Source of the DNA: Tieghemostelium lacteum
Taxonomy: Eukaryota > Evosea > Eumycetozoa > Dictyosteliales > Raperosteliaceae
NCBI GenBank assembly: GCA_001606155.1
Contig: LODT01000049.1
Span: 1-64,000 of the forward strand
Direction of reading: 5' to 3'
Length of the DNA stretch: 64,000 bases
A program made the position numbers and the translations under genes. Each line of letters begins with the position of its first letter. Within the stretch, counting starts at the first letter, position 1. The notes beneath the pieces were generated by a model. It saw only the letters and a program-made list of their open reading frames with translations. It did not search any database and was not told the origin of the DNA. Positions 32,641-48,802 of this stretch are shown here, one piece after another.

Positions 32641-35600
32641 TCAATTAATTGCATTATTATTTACTTGTTGTAACTTTTGTTGAATTTTTTGGAAACTTAT
32701 TTTAGTTTGGTGTCTTTTATATAGTGAGTATCCAACTGCAACTCCAACCACTAATGCAAATCCAACAACCCCAATTATTATTCCTGCCAATTGTGATGAT
32801 GTTAATTTTTTAGAAGATTCAGTTTCTGTAGAACAAAATGAATCTGATTTTGCAGATGCTTCTTTAGTGTCAATTAAAACACTGAAATCCTTATAAAAAA
32901 AAATGTAAATATTTCTAAAAATAGATGGTAATGTATCAATACATACTGGATCAAGTTGAACATCTTTAGTGAAATATGGAATATTGATTCCAATTAATGT
33001 TCCTGATTTGGTTGAAATTTGTGTTGAATTATCAGAAATGAAGGAATTTGAAATGATCCTGGTTCTATTATCTACAATACCATATTTAATGAATTTACCA
33101 TATAAACTGACCTCATTGACTTGAAGTCTAACAAATTGGTAATCATCAGATGTTGGATCATCTCCATAATTGATATTCGAACAACTTTCTTCAAGTTCTG
33201 ATCTTTCAATTTGAGTATTGAAAACTAACATTAGTGTACTGGTAGTTTTATCAAAATGATAAGGTGATATTGAAATCTGATATTTCAATGTTGATGGTAG
33301 AATTGTAATTGATTGATTTGCAAATTCAATTGTTTGTTTACTTGAAAAATATTTTATATTGACTTGAATACCAGTTGTGATGGTATTGGTGAAATTGGTA
33401 TTGTATTGATATTCATTTTCATTGATTTTCTTGACTAACCACATATTGAATGGGAATACTTTAATCATTTGATTGGTTGCTGAATTGTATTCTCTCAATT
33501 CCAAAATAGAAACCAATGTTGAGAATTGAATAGTTTCACCACCTGGAAGTGTAACTGTTGAGTTTCCTCCGGTTGATGGTGATGTATTGTTAAATCCAGG
33601 ATCTACAATAACAATTTGAGATGAACAATCTTCACCTGACCATCCTTCATCACATACAATTTGATTATTTATACAAGTTGAATGTGTTATTGGTACACAC
33701 CCTGATGTAGGTGATTTTATCTTAATTGAAGCTGAATCAGAATAATCACCACCATTTATTAAAACTACCATATCTTTCAAACCTCCCGTTGAAAATGATG
33801 AATAGTTATAAAAGTATTGATTGTTACTGGTTGCGGTAATAGTACAAAGTTTACTATCAATTCTTAAACTCACCAAACTCTGTTCAATGGAATCAACATT
33901 TTCCAATGAAAATGATGATGATCCACCTTGAATATCCAATTCAGGTAATGGAGTAGAGATTTTTGGTGGTGCTTGGAGATTGTCATAAATTACAGTATCA
34001 GATTGTCCACCAACAGTAAGAATTACTTTAAACATTCTATTAGGAATTGCAAAGTTATGACCAATAGCATTCATAGTAGCAATGGTTTCATAAGCAGATC
34101 CAGCTGGAAAACTAACACCATATACATTAAATGATACTTGTGATAATGTAGATCCAAAATTACTTCCTTGAACTGTAACTGATGAGGATACTATACTCAA
34201 TGATGTTATTTTAGGTGGCATATAATCAAATAGAAGAGGAATTTCTCTTTCTGACCCTACGATAGATGGATAGAATCTAAAGGTTATAGACTTATCTTTT
34301 CCAACCCCAGCAGGAACCTGAAAGTGAAATTGTCTGAATGGAATATCAAATGTAATTGCTGGACTATTAGGTAAAAGAACTTCACCAGTATCACCCAAAT
34401 CAACACCATAAACAAACATAGGTGCACCAGCCGTTGGAAACTTTCTAGTATAGTTTGATATTGCCAATGTATCTTTTATTAAAATATTTACATAATTTGA
34501 ATTGTTAAAATTAATTAAAATTTCAATAGTTATTAAAAAATATACATACTACATGATGATGATGCAACTACAGGTAAATTAGGATTTGGGTAAATGGAGC
34601 TAGTAAATTTAGCAATATTACATTTCATACATGAAGGGAGACTATCAAATTGGTTATTTATAAGACTTAGAGAAGATGCAGTACAAACTGATGATGGAAT
34701 TGCACCACTTAGCATATTAGATTGTAAAACTCTAGTTGAATACATTAATATTAATTGTATAATTAATGGTTAATTATAGTTTATACATACATATTTTTAC
34801 CTAGATAATAGTCAACATCATCTACTAGACCTGAGGATAATTGACCTCCAATAGATTGTACAGTTTGATAATAGGATAAATCTAAATTTAAAATACTTGT
34901 AAATGTTGAATGTGGAACAATGTTTAATGTTGCATAAGTTGCAGCATTTATATTTCCTAATATACATGGATATTGACATCTATCTAAATATGACCCTGAT
35001 ATCACGCTAATTGTACCTCAATTCTATTAGTTTTGGAAATTAATTTTATATATGGTTTTAGAATAAAATCTTACATGGTGGTTAAATATAAATTTGAAAA
35101 ATCATAGTATGTTGAGGTACTTGTAAACCAATTTGCACCTATTGTTAATTTTGTTAATGTTGTACATAGACTTATTGATGTAGGTAGAGTTGGTGAACCC
35201 ATATTAAGAGTCACACTTGATTCTGTGAAATCACTTATTTATAATATTAATTTATATTCTATTTAGAATCATTAAAAATAAACATACAGGTTATCAAGTA
35301 TTGGGAATAAATCAAATCTATTAAAACTGAAAATACCTAATCCTGTTTTATCAAGTTTTCTGTAAAAATAAAAAAAAAGATATTAATAAACAATTAATTG
35401 AATCATGATTCAAAGTGGATAGAAGAGTACATACAAATTCTTTAATGCTATAAATTTAGAGACTGAATTATTATCAAAAAAGAATGTTGATAAACCGTAT
35501 ATATTTCTTAATACCAATTAAATTAATAATTATTAAAAATAAAAATAATTTGATTTCAATGTATACTTACAAAGTATATAATTGTGATACATCTGATGTT

Positions 35601-36329
35601 AATACAGGTAATGAAGTTACTGAAGGTGTTATAGTTAAAGTCAAACTTTCAATAGATTTTGTAAATAAATTTAGAGGAATATTAAAATTAACATTAATAG
35701 TTAATATTTTCAGAGTATTTAGAATTGTAGATCCAAAAGGTAAACTAGGTTGATTAATAGGTTCTAAAACACGTCTATAATTATTTAAATGTTAGAAATA
35801 TTCAATTTTATAAGGTTGGTTATAAACATACAGGGTTTGTAAATAATTTAGAGTTCCAATATCATTATCCCAAAATGTAGATGGTACATTAACATATCTT
35901 CCTAAATTCCTGTTGTAATAGAATTCAAATGTTAATATATTATATATATATAATGGTAGACATTTTTAAAGTTAAAATTACATTAAAGTTAGTCTTGTTA
36001 AAGCTTGAACACTTGGTAAATTTTGGTTTGATCCTATATTTAAGCTTGTTAAAGTTAATGATTCAACATATAATTCACTAGGATCACATTGAAAATATTG
36101 AAGATTACTATTATTCTGACAAACATAATTCGACAAATACAATGGAATGTTAAATGTATCAGCTAAATTTTGTAAAACTTGAACTATACTCTAAAATTAG
36201 GTTTTGTGTGATTTGTGAGTTTTTTTCTAGATTTTCAAACATACTTTCAAAAATAGAAGGATCACATTTTACATTTTCTATTCTAAATAGAAATAATAAA
36301 ATAAACACTAACAATAATTTTAATTTCAT
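32641..36329 (-). CDS. ComC-like LRR/TIG/EGF surface glycoprotein B
   Basis: Starts at ATG 36329 with signal peptide MKLKLLLVFILLFLFRIENVKC. About ten introns fall mostly in the leucine-rich region (36.2-34.5 kb), close to one per repeat. The first joins SIFE to TDTFNIPLYLSNYVC, and the last removes 32953-32891 so that LDP joins DFSVLIDT. Long exons then encode TIG domains (PPKITSLSIVSSSVTVQGSNFG), an EGF-like motif (CINNQIVCDEGWSGEDC) and the ComC-type domain with SLYGKFIKYGIVDNRTRI. The transmembrane helix is GIIIGVVGFALVVGVAVGYSLY with a basic tail. It faces gene A tail to tail, 100 bp away, and is a tandem paralog of C. It is probably a developmental adhesion or signalling protein; that role is inferred from the family. 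Confidence 0.82.
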
Positions 36330-37155
36330 TTTTGATCATCAATAATCCCTTGCACTAATTTTTTTTATGTGGACAAATTAAATTTTTTTAAAAATAAAAT
36401 ATCTTTCACATGATATGTAGAAGATATTAAGTTTAATATCAATTGTTTATTATTTTGCGGTTTTATGAATAAAATAATTTATTTTAGATGTTAAAATTTA
36501 TTTATTGGTTAAAAGAAGGCCTCAATATTTGAAGATTTATATTATAATAATGTTCTTTTTTTGTCAAGGCATCACCTTCAACCATATATCTGCGAAATTA
36601 AAATATTTGACATATTTGTTAAAAAAAAAAAAGTTAACTTTTTTTATATTTGCATGAGTTTTGATAAAATAAAAAAAAATATTTGTGTTGTATTTGATAT
36701 AATTATATCTATGGTTCGGTTATCTACAATACCATATTTATTGAATTTCTATATAGGTTGTGTCGTCACCCATATTCAATGGTTATTCATAAAATTAATA
36801 AATTTAGATTTAATACACAATTCACAAGTCTAAAGTATTTTTTTTTTATAATTAATATTACTGAGAATGCTCACTAAACAGATAAATTAGGTATTTGTTT
36901 ATGTGTTTTGAATATTGAATTAATTTGTTAAATTTTGGGAAAAATGGACTTAGTTATTTCTTTTTAGAAATGTGTGTGAGAGTTGGTGTTTACTGTTGAT
37001 TTTCTGGTTTGATTCTAATTCTGATTTTGAGGCTGAGTTTATCTTAGAATTCTAATTCAAGAATGGTTTAAAAATATTGATAACATAAAAATAAAATTAC
37101 AAAAATGAATTGATCAATCTATGATAGTAAATAAAAAATATGCAAAGACTTCAAT
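36330..37155. other. Spacer with a decayed ComC-like scrap
   Basis: AT-rich spacer upstream of gene B and left of the LINE. No gene can be read. A stretch at 36713-36748 still resembles part of the ComC-type coding sequence of genes B and C on the minus strand. The rest gives no signal. Confidence 0.45.
36713..36748 (-). pseudogene. Relic fragment of another ComC-like paralog
   Basis: The 26-base core GTTATCTACAATACCATATT...GAATTT matches the stretches at 33066-33100 and 45598-45632, which encode the YGIVDNRT motif of genes B and C. Similarity fades quickly on both sides. It is best explained as the last recognisable piece of a third tandem copy. The match is short, so chance or local gene conversion cannot be excluded. 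Confidence 0.45.
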
Positions 37156-37172
37156 AAGAATTACTACAGAGC
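37156..37172. repeat. LINE target-site duplication, left
   Basis: AAGAATTACTACAGAGC occurs here and, exactly, at 39063-39079. The pair brackets the LINE copy, as expected for target-primed reverse transcription. It gives the exact insertion boundaries. Confidence 0.9.
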
Positions 37173-37173
37173 G

Positions 37174-39002
37174 AAATCTCTCATAATCAATCTATTAAAG
37201 GACACATATGTTCCTATTCTCGTAAATGGCCACATCACCAAAGAAATAATAATAGGTAGAGGAGTCAAACAAGGAGATCCTCTCTCTCCTCTAATCTTCA
37301 ACCTAGTCATTGCTCTCCTAGACACTGCCATATCAACCCATCCAGAACTAAAAGGAATACCAGCCCACAATAGTGAAATAAACTCCACACAGGCCTCGGT
37401 CTCTAGAGTAAGCCTCTTCGCTGACGACACTTGGACCCCAGCTTAAACCAACCAGAAGCTGAAATAATACAAGAAATCATTACCCGCTACTGTGATGCTA
37501 CCACCGCTAAAATCAACCCTTCCAAAACAGTTATAGTCAACATAAACCGTAAGAACCCAAATGGCTACAATCTAATCAGCGACCATGAAAGATATCTTGG
37601 ATACTACTTTGACATAAGAGGCATCATCAACTACACCCCAACACTCACAAACAGAATCATTTCCCTCCTAATAGCATACAAAAGCAAATCATGGAACATA
37701 AAAGAGAAAATAACAATAATCAAAACATACATCCTATCTAAACTCACGTATCATCTCTTTCTCAACCCACTACAAAAAAGAGATATACTAAAAATCAACA
37801 ACTGCATCAACTGGTTCTTATTTTACAACAAGGATTTCAACAGTAACCAACGTTATACTCCAAAATTCAACCAAACCAGATCAATAATTCCTCTCAAATA
37901 TGGTGGATTAGGTCTCTGGGACCTTAAAGGGAGATCAGTAGCCCAAAGAGCTCTAATCTTCGACAAATTCCTCAATGACCTATCCAACTCAAATCACACG
38001 CCCAATTGGAGAGTCAACCTCCAATACCAAATAGAATATAATCAAGGTATCAACTATCAAAACCAACCAATCTCAACACTTACTTGTGCTCTATCCAACA
38101 TCCAAAAAGACTGCCTCCTAGCCTGGATGAAATTAAATCCAAACTACAAATTAAATCAATACCCCAATCCTATCTTCAACCACTCAAAAGAGATTTGTCA
38201 CCAACTCCCCTACAAAAACTTCTTTTCAATTAATGACAATCCTATTTTCCAAATCAACTACAAAAAATTTACCACACAACACTACTACCACCTGTACCTA
38301 TACATCAAATACAAAAAAGACCTATCCAAACAACCTCAAACTAATAATTACCAACCCAAGGAAGGTGAATTTATTCCTCTTCTACAAATAGATACAACCA
38401 AACCTCCTCCATCTATAATCCTACCCCTCACCCCTTCCCAACTAAAAATGGAAAAAAAATACCATATCAACTGTACCAAACTACTCCTAACAATCAACAA
38501 AGTTAAAGATCCAAACCACCACAACATTATATTCCGCTACATTACCAAATCTCTTCCATTAGACTACTCCAACAAAAAGTGCACCTTGTGCAACACAGTC
38601 TCTGAATCTATTTCCACCCACATCTTTTTTGAATGCCTAACAACCACCACTGAATACACTCATCAATTCAAAAACACAATCAAATACTTCCAACTCAAAG
38701 ATATTGAATGGACTCCTTCTTCAATTCTCAACATCTACAATAGTAAATATCACATAATTCTAATCAACATAATCGCCATCACCTTCAAATCAATCTGGAA
38801 CAAATGGACATCATTCTTATACACGGACACATCCAATTTAATCAAAATACCTACCCTTAACCAAATCCTAAATATAATCCAACTAGAAAAAGAACTCCTT
38901 AAAGACAAAATCCTGCAACTCCAAATAAATAGAGATCTAGACAAAATCAATTTCTCCATACTCAAATTCAACAATACTTATAAACAAAACTACAAAATAT
39001 AA
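37174..39002 (+). pseudogene. LINE reverse transcriptase, C-terminal part
   Basis: The coding part starts mid-domain (KSLIINLLKDTYVPILVNGH) and includes the RT palm with FADDT. The frame shifts by one base near 37430-37440: the first frame meets a stop at 37443, and the next frame carries LNQPEAEIIQEIITRYC onward to the stop at 39000-39002. The second copy of this element reads TTGCGACAGCTT at that place, which keeps frame, so the shift belongs to this copy. The remaining 520 residues are open and include the RT thumb and the CCHC-like zinc motif near 38580-38640. With the 5' end and endonuclease missing, this copy is dead. Confidence 0.88.
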
Positions 39003-39079: not shown

Positions 39080-39871
39080 AATTCACAAAATCCATCGATA
39101 CGAAAGTCTTCAAAAATTGGGACCTGGTTTCTTTCACTTTCATTACATATTTGATAATTAGTTCATTTTGTTGTTGAATTTTTTCTTCATCTTTTTGTGG
39201 TTCATTGATAGGTGAGATTGGAGGAAAGAAATAAATGGGGTTACATGAAATGCAATTGTTATTGTTGCACGGATGTTTGGATGTGCATGGAGGAGAATTT
39301 TGATGATAGAAAATGAGTGCCAGAAAGGAGATTCTCCTCTCCGGCATTTTGGACATTAGAGATTTCATCTTCCTCTAGAACAGAAAATTTTCTCTTTCTA
39401 CTCAGTAATTCTTTTTCTAATTCCTCTGTTGATATTTTGCTAAGACTATCTATGGCTATTGTGGGGTAGTAGTTAATAGTTTTAAAAATTGTATAAAAGT
39501 TTATGTAACAAAATATGTTAGTATAAATGAACAAATGGTGTTGTAATTGGTGAAAGGTGTTTAGTGTACATACATATGGGGTTGGGTTGTGAATGCTTTT
39601 TAATTATTGACTGAAGATCGTCATACAGTGGAGAACCATATTGTCTAGACAAGTTATTAAATGTTTCTCTGCTGTATTTAACTAATAGTGATCCTTTGAC
39701 ATTCAATGCAGTTTCAAAATTTATATCCTCATCAAAATTGCTTTTGAAATCATCTAACCAATCTTTGGTGTTGTCAATAGTCCAATCTCGAGGATCTATC
39801 TCTATGTGTGTTCTAGGATTGCTTGTATTACTTGAACTGGTGGTAGTTGTAGTTGTTTTATATGTATTCAT
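39080..39871 (-). CDS. SAM-like domain protein, probably decaying
   Basis: ATG 39871 opens exon 1 (39871-39574), which joins exon 2 (39455-39259) at a phase-1 intron to give 164 residues. Residues 28-95 look like a SAM (sterile alpha motif) helix bundle: DWTIDNTKDWLDDF, ALNVKGSLLVKYS, YGSPLYDDLQSII. A Lys/Glu-rich part follows (EELEKELLSRKRKF). Past about 39300 another frame on the same strand stays open to the LINE junction and looks more protein-like (Cys cluster CTSKHPCNNNNCISC, then a Lys/Glu/Gln-rich helix). The annotated 164-residue product may therefore be a shortened version of a longer protein. The LINE entered this region's 3' end. Function unknown. It may belong to the neighbouring virus-like block or to the host. 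Confidence 0.5.
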
Positions 39872-39972
39872 GTTTGGGTGTAAATACAAAACATATGTAT
39901 TTAAAAAACTTTTGTTTTTATATATTAAAAATGACTCCATTTTTTAGTAGATCTTTTCAAATAATTAAATAT

Positions 39973-41109
39973 TATATTACAATATTTGTATTGGGTGAAC
40001 TAAGTTGTATATTATTTCCAACAGTTGCAGTTAAAGATATTCCTGTATTATTTACTTTAATATTATTATTTAAAACATTATTTGTTATTGACACTTCATT
40101 GTTTGTTCCAATTGCAAGATTAGTTGTTATTGGTAAAATATTGTTTGTTTTAATCGTATTAGAATTGTTAATATTGGATCCTGATAGTGGTGCATAATTG
40201 ATTGTTGTTCCACTAATTAAATCCTATATAACTGATCTGGCTTTTATTGACCACTTGGAGTAGGTGTTGGTGGATATTGGGTAAGATCAATATTTCTACC
40301 AACTGAATCTTCATAGGTTAATTGGCCATTAATAGTAGCTCCCAAACCATTAGCAACAAGAGATTGACCTAGAACAGATCCATAAGAATATATAGATCCT
40401 GTATTAACAAGACCACCTATATTAATAGACACAGGTGATGGAAATGGTGTTAATGAATTGATTGTATCTACATTTAATAAAGGTCCACTTAGTACTGTTG
40501 TTGCACTTACATTTGGTGCTGTGATGTTGTTGTTAACAATTAATGAAGGTGTTGTAATGGATGTTGTTGCATTTATAGTGTCGCTGTCTAATGAATCTAT
40601 ATCACCATTAGTTGCATTTAATGATGGTGTAGTGATTGATGTTGTTGAATTGATTGTATCAGTTGTAAGGGTATCAATGGTTCCGTTGTTGGTAACATTT
40701 AATGAAGGTGTTGTAATCGATATTGTTGAATTGGTTGTCACTGTTGTTAGAGTATCAATTGTACCATGTTGGTGTCTAAATTATTTATAGTTCCATTTGT
40801 TGATGTTAAATTACTTGTAACTATATCCTCTGCTATTAATGTATCATTGAATTTCTTTACTCCATTAATAGATTGGTCTGTTTCTGTCAGAACAACATCT
40901 GCAACTAGATGGGGTGCAGTAGATGGGATATTGATTGTTGATTTAAAACTTGTATACACATTTAATGTAACTTGATTGGGATCATCACCAAATACAATCT
41001 GATTTGTGTTGTTCTCCAATATGAGCTGATCTGTTACTGTGAGCTCATCAATTTCTGCTATATCTATATCCTCGTATTCATTTAAAAGGTCTACAAATCT
41101 TGATGACAT
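39973..41109 (-). pseudogene. Fibre/adhesin-like repeat protein of the virus-like fossil
   Basis: The start reads like a virion fibre head (MSSRFVDLLNEYEDIDIAEIDE) and is followed by an acidic, Thr/Asn/Ile-rich region. The motif ITTPSLN/VTN.GTIDTL recurs several times, as in trimeric beta-fibre shafts. A Pro-rich segment (YPPTPTPS) follows, and similar Thr/Asn/Ile-rich coding continues to about 39973. The family call rests on composition and repeats. Such proteins attach virus particles to the host surface. The gene is broken. Confidence 0.5.
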
Positions 41110-41220
41110 TTAATCTATGTAAATAAATTAGATATTAATATTAGTGTAAATTAGTGAAAATTAGTATAAAATAGTATAAATAAATAGTTTAAATATTAAT
41201 CATTTAATAATTATTAATAT

Positions 41221-41517
41221 TTACTTTTTAGATTTACCTCTCTTTCTTCCATACTTTTGAGCAACATCACCAACAGTACCAGCAATTGGGACACCTGCTT
41301 TATCTAGTGCCTTAGCTACAGTTGAAATAATCTTTTTATCTTTTAAATAAGAATTTGCTTTCTTTAACCAATCTCTTAAACCTTCACCTTGTTGACCACC
41401 TAAACTTGTCTGCATATTAGGACCACCAAAAGAGCTAATCATTCCACTGGATTGATATGCATCTTGCAAAGCAGCTTTTGAATGCAATACTGGACTTGCC
41501 TTTCCCATGTTTAACAT
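41221..41517 (-). pseudogene. Small basic Gly-rich virion-like protein of the fossil
   Basis: A 98-residue frame that looks whole. A Gly/Gln/Ser-rich middle (SSFGGPNMQTSLGGQQGEG) leads to an amphipathic helix and a strongly basic end, KYGRKRGKSKK. Small basic proteins of this kind sit next to capsid genes in many Polinton-like viruses and adenoviruses. The assignment is by position and composition only. Confidence 0.45.
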
Positions 41518-41559
41518 CTATATTGTATGTTTAGATATTATTCTAATTCATACTGCGAA

Positions 41560-42371
41560 CCAAAGTCTTTTCTGAATACACCATTCCTGTCAATTAAAAA
41601 GAAATGGTATTTTTCCTTTGTTGCATGATAATACAATTGTAAACAAATCAAGTGGGTAGGTTATTGATAGTTCTTCATATATTGTATCTAATGTATCATC
41701 ATTAATGTTTTTGAATAACAATATATAATCCAAATTACCTTTTCTGATTGAACTTGATGTATCCTTCCATGATTGCGTACTAATGATAATTTTCGAACTG
41801 AAATGTCTATGTATCTTCATTAATTTAGGTATTGATTTATCTTTCAATTCATTAGATATATCATCAAAAATAATAATATAATCAGGTGCTACATACTTGG
41901 GTTTCTTAAGCTTATTTGGGCTATCTGGTTATATCAAATCATCTTTGTTTGTTACTATTATAGTTGATCCTGGTTTTCTCAATGGTTGCACTCTTAGATC
42001 TTATGGTGGTTTTTCATTTATATTATTCTTCTGAAGAGCCATAATTAGTGCATCAATAAAATTGACTTTATCATCGAGAATGGTGGTAAAACAAGTAAAT
42101 TGAATATTTTTTTTTGCAAGATCTTTTTGAATTTCTAACCAGATGCATCATTATTTACTGTACCACAGAATATGATAACTTTAGTATCCAAACTAGCACA
42201 TTCATCAAGTATTTTCTTTATCACAACAGTTTTACCATTATTCTTAGGAGCACATAATAATATATTTGCACTCACTTGATTAAACAAATCTGATCCCAGG
42301 ATGTGTTTTGGTGGTTTAGGTAATTTAATTGGCTCCACCATTACATCATTAACTTTTTTGATCTTAATCAT
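41560..42371 (-). pseudogene. Packaging ATPase (A32/FtsK-HerA-like) remains
   Basis: The N-terminal part has the P-loop-like CAPKNNGKTVVIKKIL after a short basic start, and VIIFCGTV as the following strand. The downstream part has SKIIISTQSWKDTSSSIRKG, which fits the sensor region with a Gln/Ser-Trp, typical of A32-like genome-packaging ATPases. The gene is broken. Confidence 0.62.
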
Positions 42372-42435
42372 ATATTATATAATATAACTAAGATTATTGA
42401 AGAGCTAAGACTCTTCAAAAATTTACAAGCTATTT

Positions 42436-42750
42436 ATTAAAACTTAATAAATTCAATCACCAATGCTAAATCTAAATCCTGATCAATACTATTATTATTC
42501 TGATCGACACATTCAAAAGAATATTGTCCTTGATAACTTGATTTACTTTTATTTGTAAATTTGAAATTTGATTTTTGTGTTGTTGGTTGTAGGAAATTAA
42601 AGAGATTGTTATCACTAATTAAGTTGGTTCTAATAGTATAGACTGTATGTAGATTTAGTGCATTTTCAACATCAATTGCATATTGTTTTAAAGTAATCAG
42701 ATCAGGAACAAAGTCTAAATTGATAGGACAATAAAATTTGTCATTTTTTT
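42436..42750 (-). pseudogene. Unassigned virion-associated remnant
   Basis: A minus-strand reading lacking its own ATG reads like a protein (LKQYAIDVENALNLHTVYTI, SYQGQYSFECVDQNN, DLALVIEFIKF). It lies between the ATPase and the major capsid pieces. Its style (a short beta-rich protein) suggests a minor virion component. I do not recognise the family. Confidence 0.4.
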
Positions 42751-42939
42751 GTTGGAATCACACCACTAATTGTAATTGTTTTAATACTCGAATTAATTGT
42801 AAGTTGAAATGATGTCATTATTATTATATTAAGATAATAATATTCATGATGAATTGGTAGCAGGGCTCAAGAATGCAACAAAATCCCATTTCTGTTCTCC
42901 TAAATTCAAATCTATTCCAGTTACAACATTATCAGGATT

Positions 42940-44117
42940 CTAATCAAATGAACCATCACCAAACTCTTCAACCCAACACCAGTTATAATCATAAATGTTA
43001 GGAGTTTGAATTGTTGAATTGATTAATATTGGTCTCAGTACTTTATAATCATCAAATTGTGATGGATAGTAATCGTATTGCATTAATTTATTGTTGTTTA
43101 GATTTGTATAGAAGTGATCTAGATGAGTATCAGCAATGTTATTATCATAAATGGCAATATTAGCAGTACCACCACCTGGAATAAATAAGCTGTGATATAT
43201 TCTTTCAAGTGTCATACCATTTTGTCTATTAATTCTCAATGTAACTGATTGGTTGGTTCCTTGTAGTGATGCTTGGTTTGGTAACAATATGGAATCATAA
43301 ATGAAAAACCTTCCGTACTTGATATCTTTTGTTGGAGGTTGTTTACTATTGCTAAATTCTTTTCAACTGCAAAATGTATCTCCATGTTCAATACATTAGG
43401 TGTTGCTGGAGCAGTTAGAGCTATTGGATTAGTAGCAGGTGTTGCTGCGGCATCAGCTCCAAACCCAATATTTGAAAGTTCAGACCATACAAATCTTACC
43501 AACAGAGTTTCGTTTAACATGATATCTTTGTTTACTTCCAAAATAGATTCATAAAGTTCATTGAATGGGATTGTTACATTAAGTGTAATCAATGTATTGG
43601 CAGCACTACCAACAACCAAATAGGATGGTTCAGTGTATGATCTATCAGAATTACTTGAGTCGTATCTTTTAGATGCGGTATTTAGTGCATTGCTAGAGTA
43701 ACAAGGTAAATATGATTGTGTAGCTGTTGATGGTGCACTATTATAGGTATTCATTGTTTCTATTAATCTCTTATTTATTTTTGTTACTTGTTTAGAATGT
43801 AAATGAAAATTAGTATGATCCATCAAATAAAGACCACCTCTTGTATAAACCTGAATCTGTCTAAAAAATGGTGTAAAGTCTGCAAATGCGAATCCAAATT
43901 TAGCTGCTGTTGCTGGTAATTGAAATTGAAATTGAAACCATGATTTACCAAAATTGTATGCTTTAGATGGAGGAATTTCAAAGATAGTATCATTACCGCC
44001 AGCTGATACTGTAGTATAAGTGGTACCTGATTGTGGGAATAATCTGGTGAATTCATATTCTGGTTCAGAAACCAAGAGTGGTCTGTAATCTAATTCTTTA
44101 CTAACTACTTGTTCCAT
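42940..44117 (-). pseudogene. Major capsid protein (double jelly-roll) remains
   Basis: The start MEQVVSKELDYRPLLVSEPE leads into beta strands (SWFQFQFQLPATAAKFGFAF). The segment FFRQIQVYTRGGLYLMDHTN resembles the conserved 'R-x-Q-x-Y-T-R-x-G' and 'D-x-x-N' region of Polinton-like virus major capsid proteins. Later there is VTIPFNELYESILEVNKDIMLN, the strand-helix signature at the second jelly roll. The C-terminal part has RIYHSLFIPGGGTANIAIYD and an acidic end. The gene is broken. The assignment is from motifs and size; a structure-based search would settle it. Confidence 0.65.
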
Positions 44118-44260
44118 TTATTATATAATATATAAAATATATTATATAATAATGTTAGCTTGATAAAAACATTTAAATGTTTTGTCAAGGTTCCATTTAT
44201 ATTTAATACAAAAGATATTATATTTCATCTAGTATTTCAATTGTTTCACGTGTAAATATA

Positions 44261-45065
44261 TTATATCTCGTCGGAGATTGGTATATTTTCATTCTCTTTA
44301 ACTAATAAATAATTTATATATCCTCTTGCTAATTGGTAAATATCATTATGTTTAAATAGTATTAAAGTAATATTCATATTCACACCATTTAAATTGATTT
44401 CATTGCCGTCTTGATCTGTTAGATAAATAGTGCATGTAGTTTTTGTGCTTGACACTAATTGCTTACTGTATGATTCTACATCATAATTCTCCCAACGAAA
44501 GTTTGAAAAATCTGGATTACCTGCTGCAGCATATATCTCTTGTAATATATCATCCTCTCCATTGGTGCATAGATCTGAATGAATATAAATTACATTATCT
44601 GATTGTAAATTGATTACATTGATTGATACTAATCCAAAGTCTATGAATTGATTAACTGAGTTTTCATTAAATCCCATTTGTCTAAATAATTTATCATTGA
44701 AGGTGAATATAGGTTGTATATTACTAACATTAGAGCAAGTGAATGTATATTTACCTATATTTGGTTGTTTACTTGTTGGCCATGTTAAGAATAACTAATG
44801 TTATTTGGTGATGCATCATTGAGTAATGTTTGTATTGTATCTTGTAATGATTTCCTGTTATAGTTTCCAATAGGTATGGCGATGGTTACTGAGGAAGCAC
44901 CTTCTGTTAATGTAAAGGTATTCAGGTTTCTTCTTATTGTGTAAAATGATTTTGGTATTGTGGCCTGTAGTACTGCAACTCTATCAATGGTGATGGACGA
45001 AATAAAATTAATAAATGAACTATTTGTTTGATTTTGTACTCTTTGGAAATTGTAATTTTTTAGCT
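44261..45065 (-). pseudogene. Penton/minor capsid protein remains
   Basis: The upstream part has the penton hallmark ATIPKSFYTIRRNLNTFTL followed by VTIAIPIGNYNRKSLQDTIQ, as in single-jelly-roll penton proteins of Polintons and Polinton-like viruses. The downstream part reads MGFNENSVNQFIDFGLVSIN and ends in a helix-rich tail. The gene is broken. Confidence 0.7.
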
Positions 45066-45176
45066 ATTTGTAAAGTATTAGTACTATATTATCCTATCCA
45101 GTGGGATCGATCTACAATATTATTCTATATCGTTTCAAAGTCAATAGGTTAAATTTTTTCAAACCCACATTTTATT

Positions 45177-48100
45177 TTAATTAATGTTATTTACTTGATC
45201 TAATTTATTCTTAAAGTTATTTAATTCTCTCTTGATTTTAAGATTTCTATAAACTACATAACCTATTGCAATTGATGCAACTGCAACAAATCCAACAACA
45301 CTTACAACTATACCTGCAACTTGTGAAGATGTTAATTTTTTATTAACATCAGCTACAGAACACAATGAATTGGTTTTAGTTGATGCTGATTTTGTATCTA
45401 CTAATACACTGAAATCCTAAAATATTATAAATTACATTAGTATATATATATATTAGATATAGATTAGAAATACATACTGGATCAAGTATAACTTCTTTAG
45501 TGAAATATGGAATATTGATTCCAATTAATGTTCCTGATTTGGTTGAAATTTGTGTTGAATTATCAGGAATGAAGGAATTTGATATTACTCTAGTTCTGTT
45601 ATCTACAATACCATATTTAATGAATTTACCATATAAACTGACTTCATTGACTTGAAGTCTAACAAATTGGTAATCATCAGATGTTGGGTCATCTCCATAA
45701 TTGATATTCGAACAACTTTCTTCTGATTGTTGTGATCTTTCAATTTGAGTATTGAAAACTAACATTAGAGAGCTAGTTGTTTTCTCAAAATGATAAGGTG
45801 ATATTGAAATCTGATATTTCAATGTTGATGGAAGAATTGTAATTGATTGATTTGCAAATTCAATTGTTTGTTTACTTGAATAATATTTTATATTAACTTC
45901 AATACTAGTTGTAAAGGTATTGGTGAATAATGCCCTGTACTGAAACTCACTATCATTGAGCTTCTTTAATGCCCATTCATTGAATGGAAATACCTTTATA
46001 ACTTCATTTGTAGCCGAATTGTATTCTCTCAATTCCAAAATAGAAACCAATGTTGAGAATTTAACAATTTCACCACCTGGAAGAGTTGCATTAGATTCAC
46101 TTCCAGTTGATGGTGATGTATTATTAAAACCAGGATACACAATAATAATTTGAGAAGAGCAATCTTCACCTGACCATCCCTCATCACAAACAATTTCATT
46201 ATTGACACAAGTGGAATGTGGTATTGGTACGCAAGAAACAGGAGCATTTACATTAATAGATGCAGTATCAGTATAAAGACCATCTTGAATGGAAACTACC
46301 ATAGACTTTAACCCACCGCTTGTAAATTCAGTATAATTAAAATCAAATAGATTGTGTGTTGATGAGGTTATAATACAAGTTTTACCATCAATAGTCAGAG
46401 TTACTAAATTAGCTTCTAAATCATAGACATTGTTTAAAACAAAATAAGAAGAGCCACCTTTTATGTTAAGATCAGGTATAGGTTGTGCAATTTTTGGTAA
46501 ACCATTTTGTAGATTTTTGTAGAGTATTGAATCGGTTTGTCCACCAACTGTAAGATGTAGTGTAAATATAGCATCTAGTAATTCAATCTTTTGTGGTAGG
46601 TTTAAAATAACTGTGGTATGGGTTACTGATGCAATTTGGTAATCTTGATCTAGTATTCTAACTGATGTACTAGTAGGTATATTTCCAAAGTTTGTACCTT
46701 TTATAGTAATCCTACCTGATTGTATACTCAATGATGATATCTTTGGTGGCATATAATCAAATGTTAATGGGATATTAATTTGTGATCCAACAATATTAGG
46801 ATATAATTTAACATTAACTACTTGGTTTCGTCCAACTCCAGAAGGTAACTGAAAATGAAATTGTTTAAATGGAATATCAAATGTAACGGTAGGTGGGTTA
46901 CTAATTACAATTTCAGCACTATCACCCAAATCAATTCCAACAACATTCATCACACCACCAGTAGTATAAAATGATTTAGTACTATTCTGAATTAATAAAG
47001 TTGCTATTGTCAAATTGTTAATATATCTTATCTTAAATTAATCTAAAAGTTATACATACGACATGATGAAGTTGAAATTACAGGCAATAAAGAATTTGGG
47101 TAAATATATGGACTAAATTTAGCAATATTACATCTCATACATGAAGGAATTGAAGTAAATAAATTATTTTTAATATTTATAGATGAGGCTGTACATAGTG
47201 ATGATGGTATAGCTCCAGATAAACTGTTACTACTTAAATAGCTATTATAAATCGTAAATATCTATAGTTATAATCTAAATTATAAATGAATACATACATT
47301 TCCTTTTTTAAATAAAAGTTTTGGTTATCTAGAAGAGTAGATGCCAAATAACCATTTTCTGAAGATACCACAGTAAAATTTGTCAAATCTAGATTTTGTA
47401 TATTTGTAAAAGAGGTATCGCCTGTAATTGATAATTGAAAGGAAAGGTGAGGGTCAACACTTAAACAAGGATATTGACAAGCTGATAAATAGGTCCCAGA
47501 AATTGAACTAACATATTTTTTATAAAATTAGTATATGATATGTTCATTTTAAAATACTGAATAATATACTAACATGTAACTTAAAGTTGCTATTGCTGAA
47601 AAGTCATAAAAACTAGTTGTTGGTGTGAACCATCCTTTTGCAATAAATAGAGAAGCCAATTTAGTACATTGTGTTAATGAATTTGGTATTGATGTTGCAC
47701 CTGATGGTAGTGCTGTCTCACTACCTGAAAATAATCTTTAATTCATTGTATTAATATTTATATGTATCACTCTATAGAGAATCAATTTACATAATCTTAC
47801 AATGTTGTTAAAGAAGGGAATAGATTAAATTTATTGAAACCGAATAAATCGTTTGATCTCCTATTTAAATTTCTATTTTAAAGTAAGTGTTTAGATGCTT
47901 CCTATTTATTAATACTTATACATACAAATATTCCAAGTTTATAAATTTTGAAACTGAGCTGTCTAAGAAAAAAAATGTAGATAACCCATTCAAATGGCTT
48001 TAATTTAGTTAGTTAAATTTTGATCAAAATTGAAAAACTAATCTAAAAATTAATATACATACAATGTTTTAATTACAACATTTTGAGTAAGTGTTGGTAA

Positions 48101-48802
48101 TGCAGTTACAGCATTCGATATCGAGAGGTAGAGGGTTGTAATTTGAGTTTGGAACAACTCAGGAGGAGGATTAAATCTTACTTTTACACCTAAGGTTTTT
48201 AATGTTGGGAAGAATTTTGATCCTAAAGGATAAATAGGTTGTGAAATAAGTTCATCAACAAGACTATATAATTATTAGACTCAACTATCTATAAAATAAT
48301 AAATTTATACTTACACAGTTTCTAGTTTTTCCAACGAACCAATTTCATTATCCCAAAAATTAGTATTTACCAATACAAATACACCTAATGTTCTTTAAAT
48401 GCATTGTATTTATATTAATAAAAATATTTTTAATAATAAACTATACTAAAGATTAATATATACAATTGTTTTAAATTTGTTAAACCATCTATAGATGGTA
48501 AATATTGTGCTGGACCTGTTGATAATGATAATGATAGTGTTGTTATAAATGAATTGGTGACATCACATGAAAAATAATTTGCATTTTGTGTTGATGTACA
48601 TATTTTTCCATTTGATAAATCAAATGGTAGTGAATAAGTTGATGCAATGGAATTTAAAATACTAACTATAATGTATAGATTTAGTATTAATTATTATCTC
48701 TTTTTTTTTATAAAATTAATTAAAATTACTTTCTGTAGGTGGTGGATCACATTTAATTTTCATTAAAACATATAAAGATATTATAAATATTAGTAATCTC
48801 AT
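45177..48802 (-). CDS. ComC-like LRR/TIG/EGF surface glycoprotein C
   Basis: ATG 48802 with signal peptide MRLLIFIISLYVLMKIKC, then about ten introns through a leucine-rich region (48.7-47.0 kb). Long exons encode TIG domains (PPKISSLSIQSGRITIKGTNFG), the EGF-like CVNNEIVCDEGWSGEDC, and the ComC-type domain containing SLYGKFIKYGIVDNRTRV. The last intron (about 45481-45421) joins LDP to DFSVLVDTKSAS. The transmembrane helix is GIVVSVVGFVAVASIAIGYVVY with a basic tail ending VNNIN. It is a tandem paralog of gene B in layout and in most residues of the C-terminal 300 amino acids. The 3' halves are nearly identical at base level (for example 45510-45860 against 32990-33330), while LRR and TIG parts are clearly diverged. 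Confidence 0.82.

Follow-up and report, generated by a model that had tools for sequence, protein, structure and literature searches.

Capsid-gene remnants at the locus

The 64,000-nucleotide stretch of the dictyostelid Tieghemostelium lacteum analysed here (contig LODT01000049.1, positions 1 to 64,000, hereafter the window) carries a block of damaged minus-strand genes that is very probably the structural (morphogenesis) half of a Polinton-type virus integrated into the genome. All-frame translation of 36-48.5 kb, together with tblastn, revealed six remnants within 39,975-45,081, in the order penton, major capsid protein (MCP), a protein of about 132 amino acids (aa), packaging ATPase, basic protein and fibre-like protein. 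The tblastn queries were 31 proteins from two other loci of the T. lacteum assembly, C23 and C36, some of them non-viral flanking frames, and the cut-off for window matches was E 1e-4; the 12 that matched, at 36-81% identity, are the C23 and C36 versions of the six genes. An initial annotation of the window had described six consecutive minus-strand coding pieces of these kinds at 39973..45065, and all are present in the order it gave, within a tblastn span slightly wider than the one it drew.

44264..45081, minus strand: penton remnant (tblastn with the C23 penton, 64% over residues 4-104 and 78% over 105-279)
42853..44117, minus strand: MCP remnant (tblastn, 70-77% with the C23 and C36 MCPs)
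42440..42818, minus strand: remnant of the ~132-aa protein, with no putative role assigned (tblastn, 52-62% with the C23 protein)
41541..42371, minus strand: A32-like packaging ATPase remnant (tblastn, 69-76% with the C36 ATPase; Pox_A32)
41224..41517, minus strand: basic protein, open over 98 aa (open reading frame (ORF) and tblastn, 79-81%)
39975..41109, minus strand: fibre-like repeat protein remnant (tblastn, 41-79% with the C23 fibre)

A structural model of the penton family matches known pentons, and both a single-jelly-roll penton encoded beside the MCP and a packaging ATPase, as in Polintons/Mavericks, are found in the window itself. The UniRef name of the C36 MCP begins 'Major capsid protein N-termina'; a fold search of the C36 protein for the double jelly roll gave a suggestive result only, and no PDB entry matched the MCP by sequence. 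Profile searches, which the initial annotation had proposed as a check, do match the window ATPase to Pox_A32, but just under the cut-off (E 2.1e-4, 21.3 bits against 22.8); the C36 ATPase likewise falls just under it (E 1.5e-4) and also matches the PHROGs terminase large subunit (E 1.8e-4), and the C23 ATPase has no Pox_A32 match. Because no Pfam family matches the fibre-like protein, its label rests on its repeats and position. PHROGs and NCBIfam offered nothing useful for MCP, penton or fibre, the last searched in PHROGs only. A weak Triabin match to the ~132-aa remnant and a BppL_N match in the window, both below their cut-offs, were rejected.

The remaining 19 queries, including helicase, integrase, polymerase and protease, had no window match at the same threshold. 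The other copies have a minus-strand frame of 179-185 aa separating basic protein from fibre, and it gave no match in the window. A search for the inverted repeat of the C23 copy likewise found no long match in the window, the listed matches being scattered and of 26-87 bases at 72-88% identity. The absence of polymerase, integrase and inverted repeats reported earlier is thus borne out; of the two explanations then offered, survival of the structural half only is upheld, but replication genes of an unrecognised kind are not, since genes of the C23 type are absent from the window by tblastn.

Fuller copies in the same genome

Both the 476-aa C36 MCP (DLAC_10491, encoded at C36:24,834) and a second open MCP at C23:1,143,715 are surrounded by the same set of genes in the same order as in the window. 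The C23 copy is bounded by inverted repeats of 218 bp that are 94.5% identical (1,132,950-1,133,166 and 1,150,181-1,150,396) and measures 17.45 kb end to end, so that it has the terminal inverted repeats and the 15-20 kb size of Polintons/Mavericks; a 74-base piece of the repeat also occurs 1.6 kb outside the left one, and the left end of the element may therefore be more complex. The repeats enclose the capsid genes as well as the replication genes, so that both halves lie between one repeat pair. Within them the helicase matches DUF5906 (E 5.8e-22) and a PHROGs DNA primase family (E 2.5e-26). An rve integrase is found in the C23 copy only (E 1.7e-7, 31.9 bits against a cut-off of 32.6), as is a family-B DNA polymerase (PolB), recognised through a relative: the 719-codon frame, a DNA-directed DNA polymerase by its UniRef name, has no Pfam match itself, and its Acytostelium relative P0108 matches DNA_pol_B_2 (PF03175) at E 8.7e-8. 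A scan of the whole genome with PF03175 gave no match, but its controls gave none either. A Ulp1-type (C5) cysteine protease is present in the sister copies only (Peptidase_C48, E 1.8e-8 for the one within the C23 repeats, and 1.2e-8). The C23 repeats also contain a MUG113/T5orf172-type protein (L029:8109-8945).

In the 30 kb examined at C36, no counterpart of the helicase, integrase or polymerase of C23 was found; frames on the replication side of this copy (L025:3893-5670) look like a piggyBac-type transposase. Across the assembly, seven merged whole-genome searches put the number of places with related pieces at 34, spread over 19 contigs and counting the window, C23 and C36 copies; this tally merges 63 of 81 rows (the other 18 lie at the same places), extends down to about E 1e-3 and counts polymerase-only places that may belong to other elements. 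Among the matches listed, the segment 39,973-41,500 has no other assembly match above 87%, and that one covers 84 bases.

Decay, age and genomic setting

Damage to the block exceeds the five to seven breaks first proposed. The tblastn alignments contain about seven frame breaks (one each in penton, MCP and the ~132-aa remnant, two each in ATPase and, approximately, fibre) and 6-9 internal stops (penton 1-2, MCP 1-2, ATPase about 3, fibre 1-2), counts that were read off BLAST alignments and may shift by 1-2. The start of the penton is degraded; the MCP retains an open piece of 293 aa and has lost its C-terminus; the fibre-like protein ends at about residue 357 of 533, its last third gone. The basic protein is the only gene with no internal break, and its C-terminus is shorter than in the 130- and 142-aa frames of C23 and C36. 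As everything outside the penton-to-fibre interval is gone and every remaining gene except the basic protein is broken, the window copy makes no virus; the manner in which its ends went is something we infer.

Rates of substitution were estimated over 1151 codons in nine in-frame pieces, with gapped and stop-containing columns removed. Ks is near saturation (window-C36 1.24, window-C23 1.12, C36-C23 1.11) and Ka is 0.17-0.21 across the same comparisons. The window branch has a Ka/Ks of 0.118 (bootstrap 0.087-0.164), compared with 0.190 (0.154-0.230) for the pair of open copies, and its estimated neutral part, -0.056 (-0.116 to -0.005), does not rise above zero. A broken copy with a lower Ka/Ks than open ones is the opposite of what decay would lead one to expect; the pieces compared are those still open, a choice that favours conserved stretches, and the negative neutral value is otherwise unexplained. 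Read plainly, these values suggest that almost all of the divergence accrued while the lineage was functional and that breakage is recent on that scale; the word fossil, used in the initial annotation, overstates the age of a branch with no neutral excess. Such a history fits insertion on separate occasions, by lineages that had already diverged, better than the copying of one old insertion, but long-lasting active copying within the genome may instead lie behind it.

The block sits in the gap between two paralogous genes, among other fragments:

45177..48690, minus strand: flanking host gene, called ComC-like in the initial annotation (TIG, E 5.5e-5 on 45379-47037, and ORFs; extent past 47,037 judged by eye)
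39521..39943, minus strand: SAM/Pointed-domain fragment abutting the fibre end, non-viral (Pfam SAM_PNT, E 6.7e-10)
37138..39002, plus strand: reverse-transcriptase fragment of a retrotransposon, in two frames, non-viral (RVT_1, E 3.8e-6, under the cut-off, on 37138-37446)
32641..36190, minus strand: second, paralogous gene, on the opposite side of the block (DNA similarity and ORFs; extent past 34,707 judged by eye)

The paralogues are 74% identical in DNA over 1977 bases. A position between tandem ComC-like genes, as originally described, agrees with paralogues on both sides; the scan for domains covered the right-hand gene only and found TIG and EGF-like domains there. The 3' end of that gene lies about 100 bases from the block, and comparison of the paralogues does not reveal the insertion point because their similarity stops before the right-hand stop codon. 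The SAM fragment was dropped as a part of the virus, having many short matches and a 95% stretch at C23:949290-949680, away from the C23 element. Positions 37428-39002 have no Pfam match at E 0.01, and a strong GC skew (-0.635 at 38,001-39,000) falls within the reverse-transcriptase fragment. The gap is thus a nest of dead elements. Sites containing GATC lie at 39949-39954 and 45105-45112, roughly 20-25 bases beyond the two block edges, by chance or as the trace of a library chimera.

Polinton-type viruses in dictyostelids

Polinton-type elements in dictyostelids are an already known kind. Dictyostelium lacteum is the older name of T. lacteum. PMC6905037 describes polintons of Polysphondylium pallidum and D. 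lacteum whose integrase and PolB group with those of Mavirus-type virophages; the D. lacteum Polinton comes from the same species, has an rve integrase and PolB module and may be the C23 element, but integrase and PolB are the only parts discussed and the window relic is not mentioned. Other dictyostelids appear in trees of PMC4642659 and PMC3671162, and section 9 of PMC10120064 places several Evosea MCPs in a Metamonada group and lists Amoebozoa under PaM1, with no amoebozoan species named. No mention of a dictyostelid by name turned up in the main texts of PMC10328495 and PMC9952930 or in PMC4028283, and literature searches on dictyostelid polintons, Polinton-like viruses and endogenous viral elements yielded no gene-level description of the window relic. 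What the present analysis adds is the discovery of fuller elements elsewhere in the genome, a strong identification of the penton, an environmental relative of matching layout, and evidence of divergence as functioning elements.

The Polinton core has been given as PolB, integrase, protease and ATPase (PMC3671162), to which MCP and penton were added (PMC4028283). Polintons/Mavericks so characterised share with the C23 element a length of 15-20 kb, the rve integrase, PolB and protease, and the penton, MCP and packaging ATPase; of these features, only the last three survive in the window copy. The MCP and penton are remote from curated models. They also differ from Mavirus-type virophages: the best match of the penton is the PBCV-1 variant P1v1, which has 530 residues against 278 here (PMC9617893) and superposes with a large root-mean-square deviation, meaning that the domains are placed differently, and the MCP finds no sequence match in the PDB.

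That a DNA virus of the Polinton, Polinton-like virus (PLV) and virophage group integrated into a dictyostelid and then decayed, as the initial annotation proposed, is supported, with only the structural half left. On gene content and repeats, 'Polinton' would be a better name than the narrower PLV label of that annotation, because the fullest copy, at C23, has inverted repeats as well as the Polinton core set of a Ulp1-type protease, a packaging ATPase, an rve integrase and a family-B polymerase. The full element is about 17.4 kb long with inverted terminal repeats. Its integrase would insert linear viral DNA into the amoeba genome, and the family-B polymerase and helicase would copy that DNA; MCP and penton would form an icosahedral shell matured by the protease, into which the ATPase would package DNA. 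A role in DNA binding or at membranes is probable for the basic protein, and the fibre would bind cells. Gene content and order, the breaks, the sister copies, the repeats and the penton fold are observed directly, whereas virion formation and the route of infection are what we infer.

Three rival readings are much less likely. The block could instead be the relic of a PLV proper, devoid of Polinton-type integrase and PolB, with the replication half of C23 gained by recombination; the lack of replication-gene matches in the 30 kb examined at C36 points that way, as does the module exchange between Polintons and virophages argued in PMC6905037 and PMC3671162. Yet C23 holds both halves inside one inverted-repeat pair, and the C36 replication side holds frames read as other transposons, which makes simple loss easier, so this account is rather improbable. 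A misassembly, or the fusion of contaminant DNA to the host contig, would accommodate the GATC sites just outside both edges through a ligation chimera, but is hardly to be believed given related pieces at so many places on 19 contigs, relatives in the genomes of Acytostelium and Cavenderia, decay of the kind usual for DNA resident in a host, and a segment at 39,973-41,500 with no close second place among the matches listed. Equally slight is the chance that the host has retained the capsid genes for a function of its own, such as defence against other viruses: the low Ka/Ks of the window branch and the still open N-terminal part of the MCP and basic protein would suit such a role, but five of the six genes are broken and evolution before insertion would also give a low ratio.

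For the integrated Polinton-type virus favoured here, MCP relatives are present in Acytostelium subglobosum and Cavenderia fasciculata, several of which look truncated or fused. Metagenome contigs of 16-20 kb carry relatives of the penton. By contrast, IMG/VR was scanned five times, the query being either MCP or penton, and gave no confirmed relative, which counts against free viruses of this family being common there. An environmental contig of 7.9 kb (L066, JANYGR010000047.1), filed under a Bacteroidetes metagenome-assembled genome probably through a binning error, has the corresponding layout: protease, small ORF, penton, MCP, 170-aa ORF, ATPase and basic protein all occupy matching positions. 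Identity is 36% for its ATPase, 39% for its protease and 43% (over 46 residues) for its basic protein, and its MCP aligns with an hhalign probability of 99.8 at only 24% identity; the two small ORFs are paired by position only, and the 288-aa ORF beside the C36 protease has no separate counterpart frame.

A broader view, offered tentatively and at somewhat less than even odds, is that a circulating family of Polinton-type viruses with a giant-virus-like P1v1 penton infects dictyostelids again and again, or did so until recently. Its relatives would be widespread in environmental metagenomes, and the three T. lacteum copies would represent separate infections, not intragenomic copies of one ancestral insertion. 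No dictyostelid virus is known to have been established in the laboratory. With one element enclosed by inverted repeats, another open set of capsid genes and some 30 further places that have pieces, the T. lacteum genome makes the infection history of this model amoeba group readable, and the environmental relatives of the penton offer a route to looking for the viruses themselves.
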